NCBI GenBank assembly: GCA_028866835.1
Contig: JAGWHJ010000007.1
Span: forward strand, 1-49,424
From: Microcaldota archaeon
GTDB taxonomy: Archaea > Micrarchaeota > Micrarchaeia > Micrarchaeales > CABMGC01
DNA: 49,424 nucleotides
Direction: 5' to 3'
In this document: piece by piece, positions 3,223 to 9,370 of the stretch
How the letters are laid out: each line of letters opens with the position of its first letter
Numbering within the stretch: the first letter of the stretch is position 1
Notes under the pieces: model-generated
The model's database searches: none
What the model saw: the letters and a program-made list of their open reading frames with translations, nothing else
Told to the model about the DNA's origin: nothing
Translations under genes and position numbers: made by a program

Positions 3223-4272
3223 CTATCTGGCCAAGGCCGCATTCAGCCTCTTCAGCGCCTTGTACTTCTCTCCGCTCTCCATGTTTGCCGCATCGACCGC
3301 GTGCTTGAGCTCGTCCACTACGTTGTCATACGTACCCCTGTTTATAACGAAGGGTATGCCGTCCTTGCCTCCGAGATTGTAGGCGTATGTAATGGGATCT
3401 CTCGACGCGAGCTCTTTGTCGTATACGAGGCTCGATATCAGCGCAAGGGATCGCAGCGTCGACCTGCCGACGCCCTTCGTGAGCAGCAGCTCCCTGTAGT
3501 CCTTGGGCTCAAGCTCGCTTGCCTTCCTTATCGCCTCCCACCCCCTCTTCCCGACATCGATGTCCGGCACTATGCCGTGCCTTGCAGGATATGAATTGAC
3601 ATGTATGCTGTTTATGTCCTCGAGTATCTCTACGCTCGCGCTCCTGGCCCAGTGGTTCCTGCCGTCGGTGAGGTCAATAGTCACCTTGCGCATGTCCGTC
3701 TCTATTCCTGAGTGCGGTTCTCCTGCGACGTCCTTCATGTTCACCCTGTCGCTGAACCACTGGAAGCGTATCGCATTGCTGGACTTGTAGTCCATCGCCT
3801 GCTGCACCACGCCCCATTTCCTGTTCTTCGTGAAGATGAAGGAGTGATGGTATATCCCTATGTCATCGTATACCATCGTGCCGTCGATCTTGGCAGCGAG
3901 CCTGCTGAACTCGACAAATGGCCGCTCCTCCTGGCTTATCGAGAGATTGTCGACGCCACTTCTTATGTCATTCGGCGTATTGATGCCCGCCTTGCCCTTG
4001 CCTCCGGCTATGAAGATTTCGCTGCTGCCGCCCAGGGCCTCCCGCAGCGCACCCATCGTGACTGTTGTGGTGCCACTGCTGTGCCAGTCGTAGCCTATTG
4101 CGCACGAAAGCGCCTGGAACCAGCCCGGATCGCACAGCCTCTCAAGGTACTCATCGACGCCGAATTCGTCTATTACTACTGTGGAGATGAGGCCGCCCAG
4201 TTTCACCATCCTCCCAAAAAGCCATCTCGGCGCCCTTCCTCCGTGTAGCGGGAGCTGGGTAACGTATCTCAT
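3223..4272 (-). CDS. DUF763 family protein
   Basis: MRYVTQLPLHGGRAPRWLFGRMVKLG...YDWHSSGTTTV matches the DUF763 pattern as I recall it. The track start at 4290 is a TTG; the ATG at 4270-4272 fits better. Confidence 0.75.
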   Translation of the reverse strand: MRYVTQLPLHGGRAPRWLFGRMVKLGGLISTVVIDEFGVDEYLERLCDPGWFQALSCAIGYDWHSSGTTTVTMGALREALGGSSEIFIAGGKGKAGINTPNDIRSGVDNLSISQEERPFVEFSRLAAKIDGTMVYDDIGIYHHSFIFTKNRKWGVVQQAMDYKSSNAIRFQWFSDRVNMKDVAGEPHSGIETDMRKVTIDLTDGRNHWARSASVEILEDINSIHVNSYPARHGIVPDIDVGKRGWEAIRKASELEPKDYRELLLTKGVGRSTLRSLALISSLVYDKELASRDPITYAYNLGGKDGIPFVINRGTYDNVVDELKHAVDAANMESGEKYKALKRLNAALAR

Positions 4273-4311
4273 GCCTATATTTTGCAGCAAGAATTTTTAC
4301 GCCTTTCAGGA

Positions 4312-6681: not shown

Positions 6682-9285
6682 CTACCCTATATATAGCGAC
6701 ACATACCTTATTAACTTTTTAATGAAGATGTAGGCAGCGTTCGAATTCTTCTTGACGTCCTTGACCAGCGGCTTGTATCTGGACTTCTCCTCAGGAGTGA
6801 GCTTGCCCTCCTTGACTATTACCTGCTTCTTGCCGTCGACTATCTGCTCCTCGCGCTTGCTCACCACCTCCTTCCTCACCATGGCGTACCACTCGTCAAG
6901 GGTGTTGCCGTGCTTCCTTATCATAGTGAGGAAGTCCTTCATCTTGATCTTCCTCCTCTTTCCGGTCCTGTCCTCCTCAGCCGCAGGTATGAGCGCTGCC
7001 TTGTCGCAGATCTCCTCTATGTCTGCCTGCGAGAAGCCCATCGTGGCGCGGGCAAGCCTGTCGAAATTTATGCCCGCGAGCGGCATCTTCCTCGTGTTGT
7101 AGATCAAAGCCTGCTTCCTTGTCTTATAGTCAGGCGGCGGTATGTATATGGCCTCTCCGAACCTCTTGCTCCTCTTGAGCGCTGGATCTATGTCCCACGG
7201 CTGGTTCGTGGCGCCTATAATGAATATGCCCTCTGGGTTCTTCTCAACCCCGTCCATCTCCTGGAGGAACTGGTTTACCGCCATTCGCATGAAGCTCTGG
7301 GCCTCACCGCCGCCTCCGCCTCCATCCCTCTTAACTCCCAAGGCATCCAGCTCGTCGAAGAAGACTACGCAGGGCGTGTTCTTCCTGGCCTGCTCGAAGA
7401 TCGCGTGCATGTTCTTCTCCGTATTGCCTGCATACATGTCCACGATCTCGTTTATCCTTGCAATGATGACATTTGATGCGGTCTCCCCGCCTATCGCGTT
7501 TACGAAGTAGGTATTATGGACAAAGAAGTTATTTGCGACGAAGTTGTGCGTGTCATCCACTGTCAGATCATAAACATAGTCAGGCGCGCCGATTTCCTCA
7601 ACCTTAGCTACCGTCTCGTACACTACCCTATTACCTCCCTTCTTCTTGATCTTGCTCCAGGAGGCCTTCTTCTTCGAAAGCAGGGCCGCCCTGTTTCCAA
7701 ACATACCTATCTCGTCGATAAAGGTATCTATGTCCCTGCTTTTGTATATCATCACTTCCCAGGCGTCCTCTGTCTTGCGCCTCACGCTCGAAAGTATGCC
7801 GAATCTTAGCAGCAGATGCTGAACCTGGCGCACAAGTATCTCGGAGTTGCTTGCATAGCCAATGATCCTATGCCTTTTTGTTCCGTATCTCTCTCCTGTC
7901 TCTTCCCTGTCCTCAAACCATCCGTCCCCGGAGAACAGCCTGTTGAGGAACAGCGCTACCAAATGCTTCTGCATGGTGAATACCGTTGACGGTATCTTCT
8001 TCTCATACGAATTTGTGCCTGAAAGCCCGTGCATGTCAAGGAACATCTGCATTGAGCTCCTGCCCTGCGATCCTGTGGCGTTTATGTACCTGCCCGCAAC
8101 TTGCAGATTGAACACGCTGCCGCTCTGCACCTGCATATTCATATGAAGCGTGCTGTCGAACTGCTTCACTGCAGAGGCGAAGTCCTCAAGGATCTCCGGT
8201 TCGGCGTTCGTGAACTTGGGGCTTGACTGCGTCAGGGAGCCCTCAGAGATGAAATAGGCGAGGAGCTTTACCTCGCATTCACGCATTATGCCGTCTCCAA
8301 AGACCGGTATGTCCCGCGGTACGCCTATCATCTGCCCTTCCTCAAATGCCGAGGCGTCCTCCCAGCCGTCCTTCGTTAGGAATGGGTGCTCAGGCGTGCA
8401 CTCGACTACCCTGCCCCTCTTCGTGGTTATGCGAAGCATAGGCTTTCCTTTAAGCTTCCACCAGCCGCTAACCTTCCTCACTGCAAGCTTGTGCTTCTCT
8501 GTCAGCGTCAGTACATAAGGTTCCTTCCTTTCGACTACTTCCTTGATAGGCATATATCTGCCGTCAGGCAGCAAGACCTCGGTATCCCCAGAAATGCATT
8601 TCCCGCAGCCTGGCGGGCCGTAGAAGATGACGCCGAGGCCGAGCTTCTTTCCGTACACCTTCAGGAGCTCGGGCTTCTTGATTGCAAGTATGATGTTCTG
8701 GTAGATGAGGTCCTTCTCCTTGACCATTCCCACCACGTCGCCGAACTTTATCGTCGACTTGTGCCACCTTACCTTCTTTATCTGCCCCTCCTCCTGCACC
8801 GTCTCGTTCTCCTCGCGCTTCTGGCCCGCTGTGGGCGTGTACGGGACCTCCGGATGCCTCTTGGCCTTGTTCTTGAGGGCCTCGAGCCTAGCCCGTGCCT
8901 GCTCGTACTTCGGGTTCCTCGCAAGGGCCTTCTCGTACCATTCCTTCGCGCCCTCGTAGTCGTTCTGGTACTCCGCTATTATTCCCATGACATAAGGCGC
9001 GTCATGGCTCTCCGGCTCGAGGTTGAGCACCATCTCTGCGTCGCGCGTGGCCTCCTCGTACTTGTTCATTATGGCGTATGCCAATGCCCTGTTGAAGTAT
9101 GCGCTGGAGTACTTCTCGTCCTCATGTATTGCCTGCGAGTACAGCGTTATCGCCTCCTCGAACTTGTTCTCCTCGAAGAGTGAACCTGCCCGCTTGTAGA
9201 GCTCCTTGGCAAGAGGGCTCGCGCTGTCCTTCTTGGATTTAGCCTCCTCGGCCTTGCTGGTATTTGTAACGCTACCGCTCGCCAT
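6682..9285 (-). CDS. TPR-domain AAA+ ATPase (Cdc48/Vps4-like) interrupted by an intein
   Basis: N-terminal TPR motifs (AYFNRALAYAIMNKYEEATRDAEMVLNLEP), GPPGCGK|intein|TYF Walker A, VVFFDELDALG Walker B, IIGATNQPWDIDPALKRSKRF. Start at MASGSV (9283-9285) favoured over the track start at 9300. Confidence 0.9.
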   Translation of the reverse strand: MASGSVTNTSKAEEAKSKKDSASPLAKELYKRAGSLFEENKFEEAITLYSQAIHEDEKYSSAYFNRALAYAIMNKYEEATRDAEMVLNLEPESHDAPYVMGIIAEYQNDYEGAKEWYEKALARNPKYEQARARLEALKNKAKRHPEVPYTPTAGQKREENETVQEEGQIKKVRWHKSTIKFGDVVGMVKEKDLIYQNIILAIKKPELLKVYGKKLGLGVIFYGPPGCGKCISGDTEVLLPDGRYMPIKEVVERKEPYVLTLTEKHKLAVRKVSGWWKLKGKPMLRITTKRGRVVECTPEHPFLTKDGWEDASAFEEGQMIGVPRDIPVFGDGIMRECEVKLLAYFISEGSLTQSSPKFTNAEPEILEDFASAVKQFDSTLHMNMQVQSGSVFNLQVAGRYINATGSQGRSSMQMFLDMHGLSGTNSYEKKIPSTVFTMQKHLVALFLNRLFSGDGWFEDREETGERYGTKRHRIIGYASNSEILVRQVQHLLLRFGILSSVRRKTEDAWEVMIYKSRDIDTFIDEIGMFGNRAALLSKKKASWSKIKKKGGNRVVYETVAKVEEIGAPDYVYDLTVDDTHNFVANNFFVHNTYFVNAIGGETASNVIIARINEIVDMYAGNTEKNMHAIFEQARKNTPCVVFFDELDALGVKRDGGGGGGEAQSFMRMAVNQFLQEMDGVEKNPEGIFIIGATNQPWDIDPALKRSKRFGEAIYIPPPDYKTRKQALIYNTRKMPLAGINFDRLARATMGFSQADIEEICDKAALIPAAEEDRTGKRRKIKMKDFLTMIRKHGNTLDEWYAMVRKEVVSKREEQIVDGKKQVIVKEGKLTPEEKSRYKPLVKDVKKNSNAAYIFIKKLIRYVSLYIG
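7513..8598 (-). mobile_element. Intein with LAGLIDADG-type homing endonuclease domain (362 aa), inserted after the Walker A Lys
   Basis: CISGDTEVLLPDG (block A), CTPEHPFLTKDGW (block B), LLAYFISEGSL and LNRLFSGDGWFE (dodecapeptide motifs), YDLTVDDTHNFVAN (block F), FFVHN|T (block G). Cys1 codon at 8596-8598, terminal Asn codon at 7513-7515. Confidence 0.93.
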
Positions 9286-9370
9286 GATGATATATTGCAT
9301 TTTCTTATTTAAATACGTTGTTCAAAGCCAGTCTTTTGCAAGATATGGCAGGAGAGCCTGTCTTACCTGG

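Follow-up and report, generated by a model that had tools for sequence, protein, structure and literature searches.

Inteins are known from the P-loops of several ATPases, and the junction between the Walker A Lys and the following Thr or Ser has been termed a "classic" insertion site (PMC5050341). The TerL1-a, DnaB-b, RadA and VMA-b inteins are all inserted at this junction and use the Thr or Ser as the +1 nucleophile, as does the intein described here; unlike theirs, its host is a Micrarchaeota protein with TPRs and one AAA domain. Since Lys/Thr is a known classic site, the present intein is one more member of a known P-loop kind, in agreement with the preliminary description of this DNA, which had mentioned P-loop inteins in other ATPases. 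Related class 3 inteins (DnaB-b, TerL1-c/e) have spread between different ATPase genes in phages as well as bacteria (PMC5050341, PMC4031507); however, these lack the N-terminal nucleophile and carry a Cys at F:4, whereas the intein studied here is of class 1, with Cys1 and Asp344. The nearest solved folds to its predicted model are those of TliVMA and PhoVMA (PDB 7qsu, 7qss, 7qst), VMA-b inteins whose insertion site is also a P-loop site (PMC8966425). This pair, one with an active and one with a degenerate endonuclease, parallels the series of TPR-AAA alleles described below (PMC8966425), although the sequence identity is 17-19% and the host protein is another one. No report of the element was found in the open-access literature on inteins of Micrarchaeota, DPANN or CDC48-like hosts.

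The interrupted ATPase gene

The source genome is 1.09 Mb in 40 contigs and 88% complete, and its relatives carry the name Candidatus Micrarchaeota. The window, meaning the whole 49,424-nucleotide stretch of DNA that was analyzed, is its contig C1. The neighborhood of the intein gene includes a DUF763 protein (Pfam E=9e-99; window 3223-4290, minus strand). The features of the locus are as follows.

6682..9300, minus strand: TPR-AAA ATPase gene split by the intein; precursor of 872 aa, 510 aa after splicing
8599..9300, minus strand: N-extein, residues 1-234, with TPR repeats, the start of the AAA domain and Walker A as far as GPPGCGK (Pfam TPR and AAA; junction)
8884..9195, minus strand: TPR region, residues 36-139 (Pfam TPR families; all-helical in the predicted structure of an empty allele)
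7513..8598, minus strand: intein, 362 aa, class 1, from C1 to a terminal HN, with +1 Thr (profiles, residues, empty alleles)
8266..8598, minus strand: N-terminal half of the HINT domain, intein residues 1-111, blocks A and B (TIGR01445 match; invariant C1, T68, H71)
8383..8403, minus strand: block B, ECTPEHP (sequence, alignment)
7624..8265, minus strand: LAGLIDADG homing endonuclease domain, intein residues 112-325, borders approximate (PF14528; predicted fold)
8239..8265, minus strand: LAGLIDADG motif 1, LLAYFISEG, acidic residue E119 (sequence)
7921..7947, minus strand: LAGLIDADG motif 2, LNRLFSGDG, acidic residue D225 (sequence)
7513..7623, minus strand: C-terminal half of the splicing domain, with blocks F and G and the final residues H361-N362 (TIGR01443 match; invariant D344, H361, N362)
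6682..7512, minus strand: C-extein, with the Walker A Thr (+1 nucleophile, codon 7512-7510), AAA core, lid and C-terminal tail (Pfam AAA 597-721, AAA_lid_3)
7345..7362, minus strand: Walker B, FFDELD (sequence; D and E invariant in empty alleles)

Precursor residues 235-596 (window 8598-7513) constitute the intein, which starts CISGDTEVLL, ends ANNFFVHN and is inserted between Lys234 and Thr597 of the Walker A motif, GPPGCGK/T, with junction codons GGG-AAA/TGC and CAT-AAT/ACC. The preliminary description had placed a 362-aa intein directly after the P-loop Lys at 7513-8598; these coordinates are exact and the split is confirmed by the junctions and by empty alleles, while the strand, which it did not give, is minus (ORF 9300-6682). 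The profile search that it proposed found Intein_splicing (E=1.7e-28) and LAGLIDADG_3 (5e-19) in the 872-aa ORF, the exteins match AAA and TPR families, and the NCBIfam models intein_Nterm (TIGR01445) and intein_Cterm (TIGR01443) both score above their own cut-offs. The empty-allele search that it also proposed found 96 of 119 related host genes uninterrupted at the exact point of insertion. Empty alleles that read GPPG[C/N/G/T]GKTY across that point prove the boundaries, and a chance match is excluded.

By the residues that define class 1 splicing (PMC4031507), the intein is canonical: C1 at the N-terminus, Thr B:7 (T68) and His B:10 (H71), Asp F:4 (D344), the penultimate His (H361), the C-terminal N362 and, as +1 residue, the Walker A Thr. 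The sequences TPEH, YDLTV and FFVHN correspond to blocks B, F and G, and precise in-frame removal restores the conserved motif of the 96 empty alleles. C1, T68, H71, D344, H361 and N362 do not vary among 18 aligned intein alleles; the splicing blocks are indeed intact, as originally proposed. With Cys1 in place and Asp rather than Cys at F:4, class 3 is excluded. The predicted intein structure is of moderate confidence (pLDDT 80, pTM 0.62), and its nearest folds are the homing inteins TliVMA, PhoVMA and PI-PfuI (best E 2.6e-21).

Among 164 genomes of the order, 141 have the host (E<=1e-60), which when spliced is a single AAA ATPase with TPRs at its N-terminus. In 26 empty alleles there is no variation in Walker A (GPPGxGKT), the Walker B DE, the sensor-like N323 or the arginines R334 and R337, so that without the intein the protein has the appearance of an active ATPase. 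Its AAA core is nearest to the D2 domain of p97 (35% identity), and none of the curated AAA-protein families among the matches listed has its cut-off reached by the host. Membership in the CDC48/p97 family, judged by two AAA domains, an N domain and the curated model score, was rejected, since the host has one AAA domain with TPRs and scores 151 bits where the CDC48 model requires 803; CdvC was likewise rejected (146.7 bits against an NCBIfam equivalog cut-off of 650). The host may be a substrate-threading remodeler that makes its adaptor contacts through the TPRs.

Empty, occupied and decayed alleles

The 119 non-redundant host genes of the order comprise 96 that are empty, 22 that carry the window-type intein and one with an unrelated intein, numbers to be read with the caveat that MAG bins can mix strains, as in bin G169, which holds both states. 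Twenty of the occupied loci belong to the family of the window and two (L117, L118) to a second family. The empty alleles all read GPPGxGK followed by T, or in one case by S. On the host tree at least 15 gains or losses are required, and well supported branches force 14 of these. In one near-identical species pair, L119 (occupied) and L135 (empty), the hosts differ at 1 of 487 residues and 84 of 1461 nucleotides; since L119 falls among empty relatives, a recent gain is the simplest reading. In G169 the occupied copy (contig C28, L119) and the empty copy (contig C16, L120) are ~81-86% identical in nucleotides over matching stretches, and probably represent mixed strains rather than paralogs. 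The unrelated intein, of 404 aa, occupies the identical Lys/Thr junction in a gene of the second family (L116:901-2112, G046:C14); in a tree of 53 inteins it groups with RNR inteins, apart from the window intein (support 91/82).

The phylogeny of the intein is discordant with that of its host. The window intein clusters with the inteins of L057-L060, L071, L117, L118 and L119 (support 100/99), and the window host with L065-L067, L069 and L073. The host grouping, when forced on the intein data, is rejected (lnL -160, AU p=0.00022); the reverse test, in which the intein clade is forced on the host data, is weaker (p=0.04-0.08). Strict vertical inheritance is rejected by the state changes on the host tree together with the AU test. 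Not every branch needs transfer, however, since neither a single clade of the second-family inteins (p=0.32) nor, on the intein data, the host clade L068/L072/L074/L075 (p=0.14) is rejected. GC3 is lower in the intein than in the host gene at 20 of 21 loci. No co-conversion tract was apparent near the site: the differences between occupied and empty pairs are scattered along the gene, with a weak rise just downstream of the site in L119/L135.

The LAGLIDADG endonuclease has both of its motifs, with acidic residues E119 and D225, as first proposed, and scores above the PF14528 cut-off. The window allele and most others retain both acidic residues, with a D to E change in L118, while the motifs are damaged in L071, L072, L074 and L075, all four of which retain intact splicing residues. 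Constraint was measured as the nonsynonymous rate of the endonuclease over that of the splicing domain in pairs of alleles, nonsynonymous rates alone being comparable because synonymous sites are saturated in most pairs. This ratio is 0.93-1.22 among intact allele pairs with measurable divergence (1.13-1.19 for those including the window), and 2.4-3.2 in pairs that include the dead-endonuclease alleles L072, L074 or L075. L058/L071 gives 1.26, and the value of 2.5 for the near-identical L066/L067 rests on a handful of changes. Such a pattern is what one would expect from the homing cycle as set out in PMC8966425, with the endonuclease under selection for as long as targets remain and in decay once they are gone.

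A probable homing element and its alternatives

These observations point to a canonical class 1, endonuclease-bearing intein that lives as a selfish homing element in the TPR-AAA ATPase of Micrarchaeota, a reading to which we assign a probability of about 0.9. Translation would yield the 872-aa precursor with Walker A split between Lys234 and Thr597, from which Cys1, Thr68/His71, Asp344, His361/Asn362 and the Walker Thr at +1 would remove the intein, with ligation of the exteins into an ATPase whose GPPGCGKT is intact. Intein-free alleles would be cleaved by the LAGLIDADG endonuclease at their Walker A codons and would receive a copy of the intein during repair. We infer splicing, endonuclease cutting and a precursor devoid of ATP binding or ATPase activity. 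By analogy, an off state of the precursor before splicing is plausible, because conditional splicing is real elsewhere and a RadA intein disrupts ATPase function (PMC6195587).

The loss of endonuclease motifs in L071, L072, L074 and L075 shows that some alleles are domesticated or dead, with homing lost and persistence presumably through splicing alone. For the window allele this appears unlikely: both acidic residues are kept, and its endonuclease domain evolves no faster than that of other intact alleles.

A regulatory role, in which conditional splicing (e.g. gated by redox through a Cys(-3)-Cys1 pair, CGKC) keeps the ATPase off until it is needed, is also quite improbable. In its favor, an insertion in the P-loop would prevent ATP from binding, the P-loop inteins of Mycobacterium DnaBi1 (PMC6195587) and Pyrococcus RadA (PMC5790916) have been documented to splice conditionally, and the window does have a Cys at -3. 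This Cys, however, is not enriched with the intein, being found in 9 of 20 occupied and 25 of 48 empty alleles (Fisher p=0.79), closely related species do without the intein, and the endonuclease is under a constraint for which a pure switch has no need. The preliminary description had left the choice between post-translational control and a selfish element. The comparative data (patchy presence, lateral transfer, a constrained endonuclease and dead-endonuclease alleles) favor the latter, and a selfish element is preferred to a switch because a textbook homing cycle is seen in the data.

That the element is an in-frame insertion unable to splice, or an artefact of assembly, is contradicted by the comparative data and extremely improbable. 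Nothing was found in favor of this reading, and 21 further non-redundant loci carry the same element at the identical codon, with splicing residues that are invariant wherever they could be read fully.

Inteins at Walker A and other sites in archaea and viruses

The same genome contains a second intein, of 528 aa, in the catalytic subunit of a V-type ATPase (G000:C5:32117-33700; L003:130-1713), with LAGLIDADG-like motifs AYIIADG and AYIACDG that look intact. As its site is GPFGSGK/T, two different Walker A motifs are split alike in one organism. A RadA-like intein lies at GSGK/S (L305). Inteins of MCM-like genes in this archaeal class occupy another point of the P-loop, GDPG/T[AGS]K[ST] (L289, L294, L300, L301, L303, L311, L312, L314, L316, L318), and an intein of ~390 aa is found at GQGNFG/S of a gyrase-A-like gene in many Micrarchaeota (L283-L288, L290, L293, L296, L297, L299); the viral relatives of the latter sit at many different sites, none of them GK/[ST]. 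A CDC48-like gene carries a 176-aa mini-intein-like element without Cys1 (L309:893-1420, start LTGDQ) at WYGES/SEKN, adjoining the pore loop.

Relatives of the window intein occur in IMG/VR viral sequences (L190-L194 and others), the best six being 31-35% identical over its whole length. No viral carrier of the window intein itself was found, the best full-length viral relatives being 35% identical, and matches in phage records reach at most 35% identity and are mostly ~25%. Like the window intein, most of these viral inteins lie at GK/[ST], but their hosts are unrelated viral NTPases, which, judged by the residues around the P-loop, look RecA-like, DnaB-like or terminase. The position is GK/[ST] in 19 of the 23 non-redundant full-length viral relatives with junctions read, against 0 of 29 when the Micrarchaeota GyrA inteins were taken through the same procedure as a control (Fisher p=1e-10), a comparison in which the viral rows were gathered as relatives of the window intein and the GyrA inteins seem to carry another endonuclease type. 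Scans of viral relatives of the RNR and MCM inteins gave too few full-length sequences for use as controls. On the 53-intein tree the GK/[ST] label requires 4 changes, compared to a mean of 17.6 when shuffled, and a branch with 96/88 support sets apart 17 other-site inteins together with L116; the deep branches of this tree lack resolution, and the RadA and VMA inteins have no firm placement on it.

This distribution could reflect a class 1 lineage specialized on Walker A that moves from one P-loop NTPase to another, unrelated one, both in archaeal AAA proteins and in viral proteins that look RecA-like, DnaB-like or terminase, with the shared GK/[ST] codons and residues serving as a common homing and splicing site. 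Such a specialization is advanced tentatively, at a little under even odds, because sampling was centered on the window intein and the endonuclease type of the control seems to differ.

The TPR-AAA intein extends the known P-loop inteins to another host protein and into a DPANN lineage. It also provides a natural series at a single site, in which empty alleles are found beside alleles occupied by an active-looking intein, by one with a dead endonuclease and by an unrelated intein; in one pair of nearly identical genes, one is occupied and the other empty. This series makes both the homing cycle and ectopic jumping between P-loops testable by ordinary splicing and cleavage assays.
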